A stretch of 24,836 nucleotides of DNA. It comes from a virus. Positions 11,360 to 18,940 of this stretch are shown here, piece by piece. The stretch lies in the IMG/VR virus record IMGVR_UViG_3300048010_000006, positions 1 through 24,836 of that record; one strand, 5' to 3'. Each line of letters begins with the position of its first letter. Positions within the stretch are counted from its first letter, which is position 1. The notes beneath the pieces are model-generated. The model saw only the letters and a list, made by a program, of their open reading frames with translations. It made no database searches and was not told the origin of the DNA. The position numbers and the translations under genes were made by a program.

Positions 11360-13732
11360 ATGACAATTAAGTTTGCAAATCGTGTAAAAGTAAATACGTC
11401 TACTACAGGAACGGGTACTATTACCCTTGGTTCTGCAGTAGGAGGGTTTCAAACTTTTGCTCAAGGTGGTATCCTTAATGGTAACTCAGTACGCTACACA
11501 ATTATTAATGGTAACAACTGGGAAGTAGGCACAGGAGTCTACACTCATAGCGGAACCACTATGTCAAGATCCTATGAGGAAAGCTCTACAGGGTCTTTAC
11601 TTAATTTAGCAGGTGAATCAGAAGTATTTATTACTACGTCTGCTACTGATATTGAAAACTTAGGTAATCGCTCTATTGATTACTTTTACTTTACTGCTAC
11701 ATCTGGTCAAACAGCATTTACAGGTAATGATGACAATAGCAATCAACTAGCATTTTTTGAAGATAACGTATTAGTATTTCTTAACGGTATTGTCTTAGAA
11801 GGTGGTGGTACAGACTATAGTGTTTCAGGTGGAAATACTGTTACTCTAAGTACAGGTGCTACTGTTTCAGATGAGTTAAATATTGTAGCGTTTAAGTCCT
11901 TTACTGTAGCTGATGCTGTACCTAAATCTACTGGTGGGCAGTTTGATGCTAATGTAGACTTTGCTGCAGGTATTGACGTTACAGGTAACATTACTGTTAC
12001 TGGTACTGTAGATGGAAGAGATGTAGCTGCAGACGGTACTAAGCTAGATGGTATAGAAGCATCTGCTACGGCAGATCAGACAGGCGCAGAAATAAAAACT
12101 TTGTATGAAGCAGAAGCTAATGCTTACACAGATGCTAAAGATACTAAACTGTCAGGTATTGAAACAGGTGCCACAGCAGACCAGACTGCGGCTGAGATAC
12201 GCACTCTTGTAGAGTCTGCTACAGACAGTAACGTCTTCACTGACGCTGATCATACTAAGCTTAACGCTATTGAAGCAGGAGCAACTGGCGATCAAACTAA
12301 CGCTGAAATCAGGGCGGCGGTAGAAGCCGCTACTGACAGTAATGTGTTTACAGATGCAGACCATACAAAGCTGAATGGTATTGAAGCTAGTGCAGATGTA
12401 ACAGATACTACTAATGTAACTGCTGCTGGTGCCTTAATGGATAGCGAGGTTACTAACCTAGCACAAGTTAAAGCATTTAATAGCTCCGACTACGCTACAG
12501 CCGCACAGGGTACTACTGCTGATGCCGCACTGCCTAAAGCTGGCGGCACTATGACGGGTAATATTAATTTAGGAGACAACGACAAAGCCATCTTTGGTGC
12601 TGGGTCTGACCTACAGATTTGGCACGATGGGTCTACTAGCTATATTAGAGACAGTGGCACTGGTGATTTACAAATAAGAGCCTCAAACTTACTTTTAACA
12701 GATGTTGACGGAACAATTATGTTTGATGGACGAGACAATGGTGCAGTGTCTTTATATCACAACGGCTCTGAAAAACTCGCCACCACCAGCACAGGCATAC
12801 AGGTCACAGGTAATATTGCAGCAAGCGGAACCGTCGATGGTCGTGACGTTGCAGCGGATGGCACGAAGCTGGATGGTATTGAGGCTTCTGCTAATGTTAC
12901 GGATAGTGCAAACGTAGGCACTTCTCTTACTGGTTTCCCTACCAATACGGACGCAACAGGTTCAGATCTTATTCCTGTATATGATGTGTCTGCTAGTAGA
13001 TGGGAAAAGCAAACAATTACCAATGCGGCATTGCAAGGTCCAACTGGCCCTACAGGTCCAACGGGTCCAGCAGGATCTAATGGTTCTAATGGCTCTACGG
13101 GGCCAACTGGCCCTACGGGTCCAGCGGGTGCTGACGGTGATGATGGTGCTACTGGCCCTACGGGCCCAACTGGTCCTACAGGTCCAACTGGGCCAACAGG
13201 ACCACAAGGCAACTCTGTCACCGGCCCAACGGGAAGCACAGGCCCAACGGGGCCGCAGGGAAGCACGGGAAGCACGGGGCCAACGGGGCCAACTGGCGCA
13301 TCTGGTGAAACTACCTTATTAGGAACCTTAACTGTTACTTCCGGTTCTAGTATTACACTTAGTAGCTTAAACCTGAGTAGTTACAAATTTCTTAAAATAT
13401 ATGCTATAGGATTAGGCTTACAAAATAACAATGCATATGTTTATTTGCAGCAAAATAGTACCCGTGGACAATTTATGATAAGCCAATATGGGTCTCAATT
13501 TCTCAATAACACAAGTACAGAAATTGATTTATCTACTGGCTACGGATTTACTGGAATAGCATCAACTCTTCAAACCAATTTGACGCGTTACTCATATAAC
13601 GTGACACAGGGTGGCCCTGCAGACTACGGGATTACCACATCTACAACATCGATAACTTTTTATGCTAGTTACTTTGGTTCAACGGGTACTTTTTTGGCTA
13701 AAGGCAGTATTAAATTTTATGGGGTTAAGTAA
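11360..13732 (+). CDS. Tail fibre 1 with collagen-like stalk
   Basis: This 790-residue fibre would attach to the tail and bind a host surface receptor. Residues 1-175 are a Thr/Gly-rich beta attachment region ([40 protein letters not shown]). Residues 227-345 hold four imperfect 35-37-residue repeats ([25 protein letters not shown]). A '[15 protein letters not shown]' plus '[18 protein letters not shown]' segment common in marine phage fibres follows. Residues 560-649 are a collagen-like Gly-X-Y domain dominated by GPT, with one interruption at GNSVTGP. Residues 650-790 are a unique Ser/Thr/Asn/Tyr-rich head, probably receptor-binding. AGGATA at 11347 precedes the ATG. It is immediately followed by a chaperone-like gene and a hydroxylase. 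Confidence 0.85.
12038..12400 (+). repeat. Tandem 105-111 bp coding repeats in fibre 1
   Basis: Units begin at 12038, 12143, 12254 and 12365, giving one 35-residue and two 37-residue periods plus a partial unit. The shared core is TK(L)(D/S/N)GIE.GATADQT followed by [18 protein letters not shown] related partial copy, [14 protein letters not shown], occurs just before the collagen-like domain near 12868. The units are probably trimeric shaft segments. Confidence 0.8.
13037..13306 (+). repeat. Collagen-like Gly-X-Y repeat of fibre 1
   Basis: About 90 residues (560-649) have Gly at every third place, mostly GPT with some GPA, GPQ, GSN, GST and GDD. The run is broken once at GNSVTGP, where the spacing is five residues. 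All prolines are in the X position and Thr is the main Y residue. Such domains form stiff trimeric rods. The opposite strand reads as a long (GPV)n frame, which is a shadow. Confidence 0.88.
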
Positions 13733-14023
13733 ATGACAGAATATGTTGAAGCAATAACAAATGCTGTTACTGGCGAAGTAACTGTGCGAGCTTACACAGA
13801 AGAGGAAATAGCAGCGTTGGAGGCTAACCTCCCCAGTGCAATAAGATCTGATCGTGACTTGAGGCTACAAATGGATGTTGATCCTATTGTTAGTAATGTC
13901 TTGAGATGGAATGATTTTACAGATGTACAACGTGCAGCGTGGACGCAGTACAGAACAGATTTATTAAATGTTCCCCAGCAAGCTGGGTTTCCAAATGATG
14001 TAACTTGGCCGACTAAACCATGA
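13733..14023 (+). CDS. Tail fibre assembly chaperone-like protein, fibre 1 (96 aa)
   Basis: This 96-residue protein begins on the base after the fibre 1 stop and overlaps the next start as ATGA. The C-terminal half carries 'AWTQYRTDLLNVPQQAGFP' and ends 'DVTWPTKP'. This 'YR..L..ip.q.gfP..v.WP.kP' ending is typical of small proteins directly downstream of tail fibre genes that act as fibre assembly chaperones. The gene after fibre 2 ends in almost the same way (SDWPTKPE), which supports a fibre-linked role. The acidic N-terminal half (MTEYVEAITNAVTGEVTVRA) is unremarkable. It probably helps fold or trimerise its fibre. Confidence 0.6.
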   Translation: MTEYVEAITNAVTGEVTVRAYTEEEIAALEANLPSAIRSDRDLRLQMDVDPIVSNVLRWNDFTDVQRAAWTQYRTDLLNVPQQAGFPNDVTWPTKP

Positions 14024-14562
14024 CGCGTCAAAACTGGCAGATGTTTTCTGGAGCAATCCCTGAACATACGGTTGACCAAATAGTTAAGTTGGCTGGAGAT
14101 ACAACGGAAGCATCAACCTTTAATGAAGGTGGGTCGGATGTTCGTAAAAGCCGAGTTGCATGGCTTACGAACAACAAGTCTGTTTTGGATCTTTTGTATG
14201 ACTTTGTAGACATAGCAAATAGAAATGCTTTTAACGCTCATATTCATAAAAAAGCTGACATCCAGTTTACAGAATACTTAGGCTCAGAGGGCGGTCATTA
14301 CTCTTGGCACCACGATATTGATTGGAACCGCAATGATGGTTTAGATCGTAAGCTATCTGTAACTGTACAACTCTCTCATGTAGATGAATATGAAGGCGGT
14401 GACTTTTCTTTTAGCGAGTGCACATCACCTGACCCAGTAATAAGTAAGCAAAAAGGCACAGTATTAGTGTTTCCTTCGTACTTACAACATGCAGTACAAC
14501 CCGTAACGAGTGGGACACGAAGAAGTTTAGTAGCTTGGTTTGAAGGCCCAAAATGGGTTTAA
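14020..14562 (+). CDS. 2-oxoglutarate/Fe(II)-dependent hydroxylase, prolyl 4-hydroxylase-like
   Basis: This 180-residue enzyme would couple decarboxylation of 2-oxoglutarate to hydroxylation of a substrate side chain. The double-stranded beta-helix signature is complete: HYSWHHDID places the HxD iron ligands at His97 and Asp99, LQHAVQPV gives the distal His157, and GTRRSLVAWF supplies the 2-oxoglutarate-binding Arg167, ten residues after it. The 'YSWHxDi ... H.V.PVt.G.RrSLvaW' pattern is that of prolyl 4-hydroxylase/PKHD-type proteins. Its ATG overlaps the fibre 1 chaperone stop as ATGA, and fibre 2 follows, so it is embedded in the fibre module between two collagen-like fibres. The substrate is not shown by the sequence: the collagen stalks, another virion protein or a host protein such as EF-Tu are all possible. 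Confidence 0.85.
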   Translation: MTRQNWQMFSGAIPEHTVDQIVKLAGDTTEASTFNEGGSDVRKSRVAWLTNNKSVLDLLYDFVDIANRNAFNAHIHKKADIQFTEYLGSEGGHYSWHHDIDWNRNDGLDRKLSVTVQLSHVDEYEGGDFSFSECTSPDPVISKQKGTVLVFPSYLQHAVQPVTSGTRRSLVAWFEGPKWV

Positions 14563-14579
14563 CTAAATAGGATACGTAG

Positions 14580-16820
14580 ATGACCAGTAAAGCAAGAGAG
14601 TTAGCAGATCTTTTAGATTCTAGCGGTAACATTAAAACAAAATCAGGTAGGACTACACAAGGTCGTAACTTGAGTAATGATGGTACTAAGTTAGACGGTA
14701 TTGAAGCTAATGCTACTGCAGATCAAACGCACTCAGAGATTCGTGCGTTAATTGTTGCTGGTAGTGATACTAACGTATTTACTGACGCTGATCATACTAA
14801 GCTAGATGGTATTGAAAGTGGGGCAACTGCTGACCAAACAGATGCTGAGATAAGGGCAGCAGTAGAAGCAGCTACAGATAGTAATGTCTTTACTGATGCT
14901 GACCATACAAAGCTTAACGCTATTGAGGCGGGTGCTACTGCTGACCAAACAAATGCTGAGATTAGAGCGGCTGTAGAGGCTGCTACAGATTCTAACGTAT
15001 TTACTGACGCAGATCACTCTAAGCTAAATGCTATAGAAGCAGGTGCTACTGCTGACCAGACTAAAGCTGACATTGATGCACTAAACATTGATGCAGATAC
15101 TTTAGATGGTAAGCAACTAGCTACTATTGAATCTGAGTATCAGTCATATGCAAATACGGCTGCAGCTAACGTAGTTGACTCAGCACCTGCTGCACTTAAC
15201 ACACTTAACGAATTAGCTGCAGCATTAGGTGACGATGCTAACTTTGCTACAACTACAGCAACTAGCTTAGGAGAAAAACTACCTAAGTCTGGTGGTCAAA
15301 TGACTGGTAACATTACTATGTCAGGATCACAAACTGTAGACGGTAGAGACTTATCTGTAGATGGTGCAAAGCTGGATGGCATAGAAAGCGGTGCTACTGC
15401 TGACCAAAGCGCTGCAGAAATAAGAGCATTAGTGGAAAGTGCATCTGATAGTAATGTATTTACTAATGCAGATCATAGTAAACTAAATGGAATTGAAGCG
15501 TCTGCTAATGTTACAGATAGTGCTAATGTAGGTTCATCTCTTACAGGTTTTCCTACTAATACAGATGCAGTATCTAGTGATTTAATTCCAGTGTATGACG
15601 TTAGTGCAAGCAGATGGGAAAAGCAGACTATAGCTAATGCAGCTTTGGTTGGACCTACAGGCCCGACTGGTCCTACGGGTGCTACTGGACCTACAGGCCC
15701 ACAAGGTTCTACGGGTCCAACAGGCCCAACAGGTTCAGATGGTGATGATGGAGCTACTGGACCTACGGGTCCAACGGGTCCAACGGGGCCAGCGGGTAAT
15801 AACGGTGGTACTGGACCAACTGGCCCGACAGGACCACAAGGAAACTCTGTCACTGGACCTACGGGGCCACAAGGTCCAACAGGTAATACTGGCTCAACAG
15901 GCCCAACTGGACCGACTGGACCAACTGGACCTTCTGGTAATCCCTTTGGTGGCGGTACGTTTACAGGTAACGTAAGTCTTGGAAATAACTACATCACAGA
16001 TGTCCAAGGAATTACGGTTGATGATTATGTGCGTTCAACTGGCGATACTGATACCTACATGCAGTTTCACTCAGGCAATCAATGGCGGGTAGTAGCTGGG
16101 GGTAATGAGAGCCTAGAGGTTCGCAGCGGTGTTGTTAATGTTGACAGCCTTGAAATTCAGGGAACCGATGTCATTAGCTCTAGTCGGCAATTGCAGAATA
16201 TTGCCAGTGTAGACGCTACTACAAAAAGTGTAATTATTACTGCTAATGCCCCAGAGGTTACGGTGTATTCTGGCACAACCACCAGCGCGTCTAACACAAT
16301 TAACCCTAATTCCACTATAAATGGTACAGTTTTATATGAAACAGGCACAATAGCGGCGGGTACATACACTCTTGATAATCTCGGTGATAATTCCCCGTAT
16401 TGGAGTAAAGGTAGCAACACTTATGCTACTTTTGCTGGTCAGACGAGTTTCTATGCCGGTGGAAATTATATGGGTCAGGGTGTTGGTTATTATGTCTATT
16501 ATGGTGGCAACTATTATACGATTTGGGGTACACATACTTTAAATGGGTCTGGCGCTGATTTGATGAACAGTCTTATTACATACGGATTAAATTCTGATGC
16601 AAACGGGCCAAACCAAGAATTCACAGTATCATCAAGTTTTACCATTCGTATTATGCTGGGCGCTTATGGAATGCCCTCAACTTTTAATATGTCATCAGCA
16701 GTAACAAATTTTGGCGGTGCTGGCACATACAGACTAAATTCGGGCGTGAGTTTTGGGTTTAGATTAACAAAAAAAGCAGCCTCAACTGAAACTACGGGCA
16801 GCGGAACCCAGTACCCATAA
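14580..16820 (+). CDS. Tail fibre 2 with collagen-like stalk
   Basis: This 746-residue fibre is paralogous to fibre 1 in its middle. It lacks fibre 1's long attachment domain and starts with a short helix ([20 protein letters not shown]) after AGGATA at 14569. Residues 36-160 carry four 37-residue repeats at an exact 111-bp period. A '[16 protein letters not shown]' element follows, then two further repeat copies from residue 263. A segment almost identical to fibre 1 ([37 protein letters not shown]) leads into a collagen-like domain at 358-453. The last 290 residues are unique, Gly/Tyr/Asn-rich ([20 protein letters not shown]), and probably form the receptor-binding head. Confidence 0.83.
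14685..15062 (+). repeat. Exact 111-bp-period tandem repeats in fibre 2
   Basis: Units start at 14685, 14796, 14907 and 15018 with no length change. Each encodes (T/S)KL(D/N).IE.GATADQT plus [19 protein letters not shown]. Two more units start at 15366 and 15477. Synonymous differences between units are common although the proteins are nearly the same, so amino-acid sequence appears to be what is conserved. Confidence 0.85.
15651..15938 (+). repeat. Collagen-like Gly-X-Y repeat of fibre 2
   Basis: Residues 358-453 are GPT-dominated Gly-X-Y triplets with a shared GNSVTGP interruption at the same relative place as in fibre 1. As there, proline occupies X and Thr, Ala, Gln or Ser occupies Y. 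Codons for the repeated GPT triplet vary freely (GGT/GGA/GGC, CCA/CCT/CCG, ACA/ACT/ACG). Confidence 0.88.
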
Positions 16821-16836: not shown

Positions 16837-17037
16837 ATGACAGGTATAGATACGTCTCCCGCCGCTTTCTTTAGGGCGCAGCGAAATGAAAAATTAAAAG
16901 AGACAGATGTTTGGGGTCTTGCCGATTATCCTGCAACGGCTGAACAGTTAGCCTATAGACAGGCGCTGCGTGACCTTCCAAGTCATTCCGATTGGCCCGC
17001 TGTTGCCGATAGCGACTGGCCGACTAAGCCAGAGTAA
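16837..17037 (+). CDS. Tail fibre assembly chaperone-like protein, fibre 2 (66 aa)
   Basis: This 66-residue protein lies 16 bases after the fibre 2 stop, preceded by GGAAAGG. The segments 'AQRNEKLKETDVWGLADYP', 'AYRQALRDLPSH' and a final 'SDWPTKPE' fit the small fibre-assembly proteins whose typical form is 'R..kL..tDw..l.DyP.t.eq..YRqaLRdlp....WP.kP'. It shares the YR..LRd and WPTKP elements with the protein after fibre 1 but little else, as expected if each chaperone matches its own fibre head. Confidence 0.6.
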   Translation: MTGIDTSPAAFFRAQRNEKLKETDVWGLADYPATAEQLAYRQALRDLPSHSDWPAVADSDWPTKPE

Positions 17038-17057: not shown

Positions 17058-17921
17058 ATGTTTGGTTTTACACCACTAGCAACTACTACTCTAGCATCAT
17101 CTGTATCAGGTGTTTCTGCAGAAGTACCTGTTACAGGTATAGTTGCAACGGGTGCAGTCTCTACTGTTGTAGAACATGTTACTGAGCGCCTTGCTAGTGT
17201 ATCTGCTACAGGTGCGGTAGGCACACCTTCTATAAACCCTGACGAAGTTACAAACTCTGTAAGTGCTACAACAGCCGTAGGCACAGTAACTGTAAATATT
17301 TCTGAATTACTTGCTAGTGTAGCAGCCACAGGTACAGTAGTAACTGTAGGGTTTGATGCTAAAGGTAATCATACACTAGCATCAGTAAGTGCTACAGGGT
17401 CTATTGAACCTGTTTCTGTCGGTGGTTTTGAAGTTGACGTATCTGAAAACTTACTATCTGTTTCAGCTACAGGTGCAGTAGGTAGCTTAACACTTAATGT
17501 ATCTGAGTTATTAAATAGCGTAACTGCTACAGGTACAATAACAAACGTAATACCATCTAGCGATGCTAATCAAACACTTGTAGGTGTATCAGCATCTGGC
17601 GCAGTTGAAGCTGTTAGTTTTGATGGCTTTGAGATTGATGTATCTGAAAAAGTATTATCTGTTTCGGCTACAGGTGCAGTAGCAAATGTAAAAGCAAATA
17701 TAACAGAGATACTTAATAGTGTAGCTGCTAATACAAATGTAGGAAGCGTAGTTGCTACAGGCGTTACCTCCCAGTTTGATATAAACGCATTTGATAAAGA
17801 TAGAGTTATTTATGCGGTAGCAGTACCAAGAGAAAACGTAGTACATATTAGACCAGATAATAGAACCATTGTGATTAATGAAATAAGTAGGATTAATCAA
17901 ACAATTAGAGTTGCAGCCTAA
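17058..17921 (+). CDS. Tandem-repeat structural protein (287 aa)
   Basis: This 287-residue protein is built from about ten units of 20-25 residues with the core 'LxSVSATGAVG', each followed by a short variable beta segment often ending in 'DVSE' or 'NVSE'. Units 5-7 and 8-10 repeat as a larger block of about 67 residues (GGFEVDVSENLLSVSATGAV versus DGFEIDVSEKVLSVSATGAV). The C-terminus (VAVPRENVVHIRPDNRTIVI) has the 'v.v..enR.v.v' ending seen in a number of phage structural proteins. No enzyme motif is present. An elongated beta-structured virion or tail protein is likely. Confidence 0.6.
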   Translation: MFGFTPLATTTLASSVSGVSAEVPVTGIVATGAVSTVVEHVTERLASVSATGAVGTPSINPDEVTNSVSATTAVGTVTVNISELLASVAATGTVVTVGFDAKGNHTLASVSATGSIEPVSVGGFEVDVSENLLSVSATGAVGSLTLNVSELLNSVTATGTITNVIPSSDANQTLVGVSASGAVEAVSFDGFEIDVSEKVLSVSATGAVANVKANITEILNSVAANTNVGSVVATGVTSQFDINAFDKDRVIYAVAVPRENVVHIRPDNRTIVINEISRINQTIRVAA

Positions 17922-18250: not shown

Positions 18251-18940
18251 ATGGCATACGATTATCTTGGGTTAGTTAATGATGTAAATCGTAGGCTTAA
18301 TGAAGTAGAATTAACCTCTGCTAACTTTGCTACTACTACAGGTTTTTATAGTTTTGCTAAAGATGCAGTAAACTCTTCTATTCGGCACATCCAGCAAGAA
18401 GAGTATGAGTGGCCTTGGAATCACGTAGAGCAGGAAGAGGTGCTACTTGCTGGTGAGGTTCGCTACAGTTTTCCTTATGATGCTAAGACTATCAATATGA
18501 ATAGCTTTCGTATCAAAAGAAATGCAGATTTAAGCGTAGATACCGTTAAACTTAAAGTACTTAGCTATGAAGAATACCTTGACAAGTATGCTGATTATGA
18601 GTATAACTCTAACACTAGCGTAAGATCTGTACCCTCTTTTATTATAAGAGCGCCTAGCAGGGAGTTACTGGTAGTACCAGCCCCAGACAAGGCATACGAA
18701 TTAGTTTATGAATATTATACAACTGGTTTTGATTTAGAGCTACACTCAGATGTTCCTAATCTCCCCGAAATGTACAAATATGTAATAGTTGATGGTGCTA
18801 TGTACTATGTCTATCAGTTTAGAGGTGACATGCAAGCAGCACAATTAGCCATGCAGAAGTTTGAGCAGGGAATTAAACAATTACGTAGCATACACATAAA
18901 TCGTACTGAATATGTACGTGATCGAAGAGTATCCTTCTAA
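18251..18940 (+). CDS. Tail tubular protein A / gp11-like adaptor (229 aa)
   Basis: This 229-residue protein lies directly before the nozzle-type gene and overlaps it as TAATG. It is predicted helical at both ends (YLGLVNDVNRRLNEVEL near the start, MQAAQLAMQKFEQGIKQLRS near 193-212) with a beta centre (PSFIIRAPSRELLVVPAPDK, 135-154), the layout of podovirus tail adaptor or tubular A proteins (T7 gp11, P22 gp4-type role). Such proteins form the ring under the portal and connect it to the nozzle. No lysozyme or metal motif is seen. Function follows mainly from position, size and fold pattern. Confidence 0.62.
   Translation: MAYDYLGLVNDVNRRLNEVELTSANFATTTGFYSFAKDAVNSSIRHIQQEEYEWPWNHVEQEEVLLAGEVRYSFPYDAKTINMNSFRIKRNADLSVDTVKLKVLSYEEYLDKYADYEYNSNTSVRSVPSFIIRAPSRELLVVPAPDKAYELVYEYYTTGFDLELHSDVPNLPEMYKYVIVDGAMYYVYQFRGDMQAAQLAMQKFEQGIKQLRSIHINRTEYVRDRRVSF

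Follow-up and report, generated by a model that had tools for sequence, protein, structure and literature searches.

A phage oxygenase encoded between two collagen-like tail fibres as a candidate collagen prolyl hydroxylase

The virus record IMGVR_UViG_3300048010_000006 of IMG/VR, the whole 24,836-base stretch of which was analyzed here and is referred to below as the window, reads as one portion of the structural gene block of a marine tailed phage. A gene encoding a small 2-oxoglutarate (2OG)/Fe(II) oxygenase is located there between two tail fibre genes carrying collagen-like Gly-X-Y arrays, which raises the question as to whether the phage modifies its own fibres. The initial annotation of the window had put forward hydroxylation of the fibre stalks by this enzyme, and the support which this proposal has now received comes from comparative genomics and from the fold of the enzyme: judging from these data, the oxygenase is quite probably a phage collagen prolyl hydroxylase acting on the stalks of its own fibres. 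The window also encodes a terminase, a portal/head-tail adaptor, and a major head protein. The fibre cassette has the order fibre 1, chaperone 1, oxygenase, fibre 2, chaperone 2, and comprises the following features.

11360–13732, plus strand: tail fibre 1, 790 amino acids (PF01391, Collagen, 8.4e-12; tail fibre PHROGs)
13037–13312, plus strand: Gly-X-Y array of fibre 1, amino acids 560–651, 30 triplets including 14 GPT, no Lys; proposed substrate
13733–14023, plus strand: tail fibre assembly chaperone 1, 96 amino acids, ATGA-coupled to the oxygenase (PF16778, 1.1e-10; phrog_4628, 1.8e-15)
14020–14562, plus strand: 2OG/Fe(II) oxygenase with a prolyl-hydroxylase fold, 180 amino acids; proposed collagen-fibre prolyl hydroxylase (PF13640, motif, AlphaFold2 model, fold matches)
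14580–16820, plus strand: tail fibre 2, 746 amino acids (PF01391, 6.1e-11; tail fibre PHROGs)
15651–15944, plus strand: Gly-X-Y array of fibre 2, amino acids 358–455, 32 triplets including 16 GPT, no Lys; proposed substrate
16837–17037, plus strand: tail fibre assembly chaperone 2, 66 amino acids (PF16778, 1e-13)

The two flanking arrays have the length initially described, about 90 Gly-X-Y residues each, and the ATGA by which the open reading frame (ORF) of the oxygenase overlaps that of the fibre 1 chaperone is present in the bases. GPT (Gly-Pro-Thr) is the most frequent triplet in both arrays, and Thr is the most frequent residue at Y. The statement that all the prolines occupy the X position holds for 39 of the 40, the odd one belonging to the GNP triplet which closes the fibre 2 array. 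Both chaperones pass the PF16778 cut-off of 26.6 bits (41.6 bits at 13733–14023 and 51.3 bits at 16837–17037). No gene of the PLOD type, a lysyl hydroxylase/glycosyltransferase described below, was found in the window.

The oxygenase and its fold

The 2OG-Fe(II) oxygenase superfamily is marked by a metal-binding His-X-Asp ... His triad, followed after ten residues by an Arg or Lys which binds 2OG. The product of 14020–14562 belongs to this superfamily, since it matches PF13640 at 7.5e-16 (59.3 bits, cut-off 27); it also matches phrog_61 at 2.2e-33. The signature which had been read from the window as complete (His97, Asp99, His157, and Arg167) is invariant in an alignment of the window enzyme with 38 relatives showing 44–91% identity to it, and the AlphaFold2 model obtained from these 39 sequences has a mean pLDDT of 94.4. 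The top match of the model in Foldseek was vCPH of PBCV-1 (3.3e-10). In VIA-align, the Z scores were 18.6 for the Pseudomonas prolyl 4-hydroxylase (P4H), 17.9 for algal P4H-1, 17.8 for vCPH, and 17.7 for PHD2, and lower rows included human LH3 (16.1) and mimivirus L230 (15.1). The ten best rows (Z 17.1–18.6) were all P4H or PHD entries, and the predicted fold is thus that of a prolyl hydroxylase. Since Z differences of less than 1 were treated as ties and lysyl hydroxylases show this fold too, with Z values of 15–16, the model points to the class of the enzyme and not to its target.

Among the structures matched, vCPH (5c5t) and algal P4H-1 (3gze) have the same prolyl-hydroxylase fold as the window enzyme, and vCPH is likewise encoded by a virus, but these proteins show about 20% identity to it and come from an algal virus and an alga, not from a phage. 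Their 2OG-binding residue is Lys, where the window enzyme has Arg167. The best fold matches, namely the Pseudomonas putida prolyl hydroxylase (4iw3, solved with EF-Tu) and animal PHD2, have Arg as the 2OG ligand, as the window enzyme does; according to the titles of the structure entries, their partners are EF-Tu and HIF peptides, respectively, and we know of no link between either of them and collagen. In animals, the subunit of collagen P4H (C-P4H) is longer, binds 2OG through Lys, and carries a distinct peptide-binding domain. With Arg167 where Lys would be expected and a length of only 180 amino acids, the window enzyme was not classed as a C-P4H. Assignment to the PKHD-type hydroxylase YbiX/PiuC was rejected, the best score with the NCBIfam PRK05467 models being 53.8 bits vs a curated cut-off of 143. 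The animal prolyl 3-hydroxylase (leprecan) modifies X-site Pro, at ring carbon 3; the prolines in the arrays linked to the oxygenase are mostly at X, which does not discriminate between the ring positions.

Linkage of the oxygenase to collagen-like fibres

Scanning viral contigs with the window oxygenase yielded 271 stretches carrying a relative, the best 80 of which were analyzed. Since fibre modules collect cargo genes, adjacency alone was not accepted as proof, and outgroup oxygenases, backbone-anchored loci, composition-blind arrays, and GPT arrays were used as controls. Loci with at least 2.5 kb upstream were taken to be informative, and arrays were sought up to 5 kb upstream on the strand of the oxygenase, after dropping ORFs of less than 50 amino acids and arrays in which half or more of the residues were Gly. 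A Gly-X-Y ORF was present upstream in all 55 informative loci, and in 25/25 after dereplication at 90%, so that the co-occurrence of enzyme and collagen fibre which the initial annotation had recommended looking for in related genomes was found in every informative locus among the best 80 close relatives. The gene layouts around the oxygenase vary widely in this set. In the 25 of the 80 loci with less than 2.5 kb upstream, an array was found in 16, and the remaining nine have no more than 931 upstream bases. In a sister group, which was queried with the oxygenase of cyanophage S-8S56, an array was located upstream in 33 of 40 loci and on either side in 34.

Among the outgroup oxygenases of the uvsW type, no array was found alongside in any of the 13 informative loci. 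Four of the five annotated phages fetched have neither an array near the gene nor any collagen match in the whole record; the fifth, S-8S56 (locus L203), carries an array just upstream, but it has less than 2.5 kb upstream and stands outside the count, as does the Erythrobacter locus L469, which also has an array upstream. In a 93-row oxygenase tree, which is rough and has bootstrap values that had not settled, a single supported group of 77 rows contains 54 of the 57 collagen-linked ones. A 13-row bacterial branch, mostly alphaproteobacterial with two Myxococcota rows, is nested in this group, and comprises nine rows without linkage and four indeterminate ones.

The tail protein at 18251–18940, which lies 4 kb downstream and is independent of the fibres, served as an anchor for a comparison along the phage backbone, in which loci with 6.5 kb upstream were counted. 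The first scan gave 80 loci, and a second one 60 more; the query of the latter came from locus L340, known to have collagen without the enzyme, and was therefore not neutral. In the 41 loci counted, enzyme and collagen occurred together in 6, the enzyme alone in none, collagen alone in 6, and neither in 29 (Fisher p = 2e-4). The corresponding numbers were 4, 0, 3, and 23 after dereplication by shared DNA (n = 30; p = 0.001), and 4, 0, 2, and 14 when the first scan alone was dereplicated (n = 20; p = 0.003). On the window backbone, the oxygenase was thus found only together with collagen fibres. The GPT share of the triplets amounted to 0.42–0.50 in four enzyme loci vs 0.02–0.08 in four collagen-only loci, where GAT accounted for 0.25–0.38. 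Because these four collagen-only loci retain some Pro at X (0.25–0.42), it appears to be GPT, rather than Pro alone, that goes with the oxygenase on this backbone.

The fibre region might also be a mere hotspot for cargo genes, and the oxygenase might modify EF-Tu, a ribosomal protein, or some other host protein during takeover. The Pseudomonas enzyme solved with EF-Tu does have the nearest fold by Z, and there exists a chromosomal branch without nearby collagen. However, a hotspot leaves unexplained why the enzyme follows Pro at X, and the enzyme was present in none of the 29 backbone loci lacking a collagen fibre. We consider a host target to be quite unlikely.

Two array scans, each with at least 120 matches, were also compared. 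Among the matches listed, to which all the counts in these two scans refer, a composition-blind Gly-X-Y scan returned 116 arrays and a GPT-array scan 111 real arrays. The oxygenase was detected at E < 1e-15 in 4 of the 116 composition-blind loci, and in 13 of the 111 GPT-array loci (16 at E < 1e-3), the difference in frequency between the two sets having a Fisher p of 0.02. The 112 composition-blind arrays without the enzyme have a median GPT share of 0.00 and a median Pro-at-X share of 0.20; the medians for 28 dereplicated close loci are 0.50 and 0.68, respectively.

Proline, lysine, and the matching enzymes

In some relatives, the oxygenase gene is followed by a gene of mostly 580–636 codons encoding a PLOD-type lysyl hydroxylase/glycosyltransferase. 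The profile matches of the protein encoded by L051:4844-6586 are a PLOD glycosyltransferase domain (4e-43), glycosyltransferase family 25, and a C-terminal 2OG domain; its matches among solved structures are human LH3 (2e-31) and two weak ones, procollagen galactosyltransferase 1 (1.9e-4) and 6ax6 (2.5e-4), a lysyl hydroxylase domain of viral origin. The proteins of L024, L029, and L073 have the layout of L051 with a 2OG match below the cut-off, and that of L203 has two transferase domains only. In an alignment of eight PLOD-type proteins, the C-terminal H-X-D and a later His are invariant. In the annotated isolates carrying the gene, its product is labelled as hypothetical or as a 2OG oxygenase.

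The presence of this gene was compared with that of Lys at Y, using a cut of 5% which we chose ourselves and leaving out the loci with less than 1.5 kb downstream in which no PLOD-type gene was seen. Among 106 loci with an array, 30 have both Lys and the gene, none has Lys without the gene, one (L451) has the gene without Lys, and 75 have neither. The two features therefore match in 105/106 loci, and in 53/54 after dereplication (17, 0, 1, and 36, in the same order). Each of them changes ten times on the oxygenase tree, and of the five independent pairs located on well-supported branches, an average of 4.9 are in agreement and not one runs the other way.

The converse search was carried out with the PLOD-type protein, which has 503 relatives in the viral scan, the best 80 being analyzed. 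An array was found in 63 of these loci and none was seen in 17; Lys at Y reached at least 5% in 62 of the 63. Once 10 further loci with less than 2 kb upstream had been left out, 53 were counted, 20 with the oxygenase and 33 without. The Pro-at-X share was 0.26–0.51 in 19 of the 20 loci with the oxygenase, and 0.00–0.07 in all 33 without it. Oxygenase and Pro at X thus match in 52 of the 53 loci, the exception, L634, having a Gly-rich stretch which is not collagen; it was counted as an exception here, and set aside in the comparisons of array strings and of Thr. The remaining 52 loci contain 38 different array strings, 12 with the oxygenase and 26 without. Among cultured phages, Roseobacter phage CRP-6 was examined after these comparisons: a 15.8-kb stretch of it carries a PLOD-type gene and no oxygenase, along with 26 Lys at Y, 30 GAT, and 6 GPT, and in Synechococcus phages S-PRM1 and S-CAM9, a sister-group oxygenase and a PLOD-type gene accompany an array with GPT and Lys. 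Judging from the composition of the arrays, the oxygenase follows Pro at X within these phages, and the PLOD-type enzyme follows Lys at Y.

The substrate might instead be Thr at Y, alone or together with Pro, and hydroxylation might then serve to attach a sugar. In the window arrays, no other residue is as common at Y as Thr, GPT is the matched triplet, and Thr at Y is more frequent where the enzyme is present. Nevertheless, arrays in PLOD loci lacking the enzyme keep Thr at Y (median 0.43) with nearly no Pro at X, the Pro ranges with and without the enzyme do not overlap once L634 is set aside, and the best fold matches are prolyl hydroxylases, followed by lysyl hydroxylases and related proteins. 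We would give this explanation little chance of being correct. Because Thr at Y persists in the arrays of the enzyme-less PLOD loci, Pro is the better match of the two, which answers the caution about X-site prolines expressed in the initial annotation: in the PLOD phages, the enzyme is present with Pro at X and absent without it, while Thr at Y stays. Pro at X, mostly before Thr, would therefore be the best candidate site, with Thr as a weaker candidate.

Another part of the fibre, or the chaperone, might also be the target, the enzyme merely travelling with collagen fibres. The ATGA coupling to the chaperone in the window would fit this idea, as would the position of the chaperone between fibre and oxygenase in many relatives. 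There is, however, no ORF between array and oxygenase in L056, L074, and L079, and the presence of the enzyme can be predicted from the residues of the array itself, which makes such a target very improbable.

Further genes were observed near the oxygenase in relatives. Radical SAM/SPASM proteins, which could be responsible for further peptide modification, are encoded in the fibre cassette by L072:7218-8198 and L076:8880-9992, both of which overlap the start of the oxygenase gene. A sulfotransferase-family gene (L029:5281-5868) lies just upstream of the oxygenase and downstream of a 181-triplet array. L036:1915-2574 and its relatives in L032, L034, L037, and L049 encode proteins of about 219 amino acids between chaperone and oxygenase; this family is possibly a second oxygenase, given its H-X-D and later His/Arg pattern, and it gave no Pfam match above the cut-off in L034, L036, and L037 and a single-sequence model with a pLDDT of 31.7. 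PF13759 oxygenases are located between the chaperone and the family oxygenase in L033 and L050, and a second 2OG oxygenase directly precedes the family member in cyanophages S-8S56 (L203:1787-2401), S-PRM1, and S-CAM9. On bacterial chromosomes, L470, L472, L473, L483, and their relatives represent a branch of the oxygenase from marine Alphaproteobacteria and Myxococcota, in which the neighbouring genes vary and include no collagen; in L485 (2-8549), on a Terriglobia chromosome, a PLOD-type gene and a distant oxygenase of the family share one strand with a run of four collagen-like ORFs. In the window itself, the second fibre module is directly followed by a 287-amino-acid protein (17058–17921) with many SVSATGAV-like repeats and only a weak PHROG match.

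Proposed fibre maturation in phages

Several observations weigh against the idea that the oxygenase is a collagen prolyl hydroxylase. The contrary case mentioned in the initial annotation, that of the gene occurring without a collagen-like fibre, did not arise among the 55 close loci; it did so in 6 of the 40 sister loci. The records of two of these, L210 and L261, hold collagen according to a whole-record Pfam search (near the gene when a stop is read through in L210, and about 8 kb away in L261), and the same search gave no collagen in the other four (L245, L247, L251, and L262). Among the bacterial rows, outgroup rows included, 13 of the 14 informative ones lack an array in the 5 kb upstream. 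Of 11 assemblies from the nested branch, some of them perhaps incomplete, 9 contain no collagen match at all; a match was present somewhere in 6 of the 16 bacterial genomes searched, including both Myxococcota. The idea that the oxygenase always needs collagen is ruled out by this chromosomal branch, the enzyme of which must have another target. Conversely, 98 of the 111 viral GPT-array loci listed show no family member at E < 1e-15 in the stretch analyzed, many of these stretches being partial and other hydroxylases not having been sought, and GPT stalks can apparently do without this enzyme. Among the PLOD loci, the share of Thr at Y likewise rises with the oxygenase (median 0.66 vs 0.43 without). 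Many loci are near-copies of one another, and independent switches are few: the sign test for PLOD and Lys gave 0.06, which is the minimum possible from five pairs, and on a quick-method PLOD tree, three of four oxygenase pairs agree, one shows no difference, and none opposes (sign test 0.25), with a Pro cut of 0.15 which places L029 just below it in spite of its 26 GPT triplets. Lastly, some model triple helices can be weakened by X-site hydroxyproline, so that a gain of stability is not certain.

If the oxygenase is a collagen prolyl hydroxylase, as we think, it would be a product of the fibre operon, co-translated with the fibre chaperone, and might meet the unfolded, newly made fibre chains in the infected cell, before or during trimer formation. 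Using Fe(II), O2, and 2-oxoglutarate, it would hydroxylate the X-site Pro of Gly-Pro-Thr in the arrays of both flanking fibres, ring carbon 4 being likelier than ring carbon 3. A Gly-Hyp-Thr helix is more stable than a Gly-Pro-Thr helix, although a passage to this effect was sought in the literature and not found, and the modification would probably stabilize or stiffen the triple-helical three-chain stalk. In the relatives with Lys at Y, the lysines would be treated by the PLOD-type lysyl hydroxylase and its two glycosyltransferase domains. It seems fairly likely, on the whole, that phages run a modular, animal-like collagen maturation, in which a prolyl hydroxylase is kept with Pro at X and a three-domain PLOD-type enzyme (procollagen-galactosyltransferase-like, LH3-glycosyltransferase-like, and lysyl-hydroxylase-like) with Lys at Y.

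Parts of this scheme have known counterparts. Like the window fibres, the side tail proteins of E. coli O157 prophages are phage tail proteins with collagen stalks, which are described as trimeric (PMC3368898). Mimivirus L230 and human LH3 (PLOD3) are cases of a virus or an animal modifying its own collagen, but on Lys and not on Pro; L230 is reported to make hydroxylysine and then to glucosylate it (PMC4691112). The prolyl 4-hydroxylase of Bacillus anthracis is described as hydroxylating the prolines of peptides at both X and Y, with a preference for Y (PMC8968730), but unlike the window enzyme it is encoded by a bacterial gene with no matched phage fibre. A helix is reported to gain stability when 4-hydroxyproline occupies X as well as Y, compared with Y alone (PMC12862961). 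The usual description of collagens from bacteria and phages is that they carry no hydroxylation: the paper on the O157 prophages states that prolyl hydroxylases for Y-site proline are absent from bacteria and viruses (PMC3368898), and a review that hydroxyproline is beyond the ability of most bacteria (PMC8968730). A literature search covering titles and abstract openings, with few subscription journals, returned no report of phage collagen hydroxylation, nor any of collagen Lys self-modification or a prolyl hydroxylase structure in bacteriophages. Lys self-modification of viral collagen in mimivirus and the structure of a prolyl hydroxylase from PBCV-1 are already known; what would be new is the occurrence of known chemistry and folds in a phage setting, with an unusual match between enzyme and substrate residue.

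This reading can be tested in the cultured phages S-PRM1, S-CAM9, and CRP-6. If it is true, one branch of the many marine phage 2OG oxygenases would have a target, and small single-gene collagen hydroxylases would become available. Collagen maturation would then take place far outside the animals, each phage being equipped with whichever enzymes its own stalk requires.

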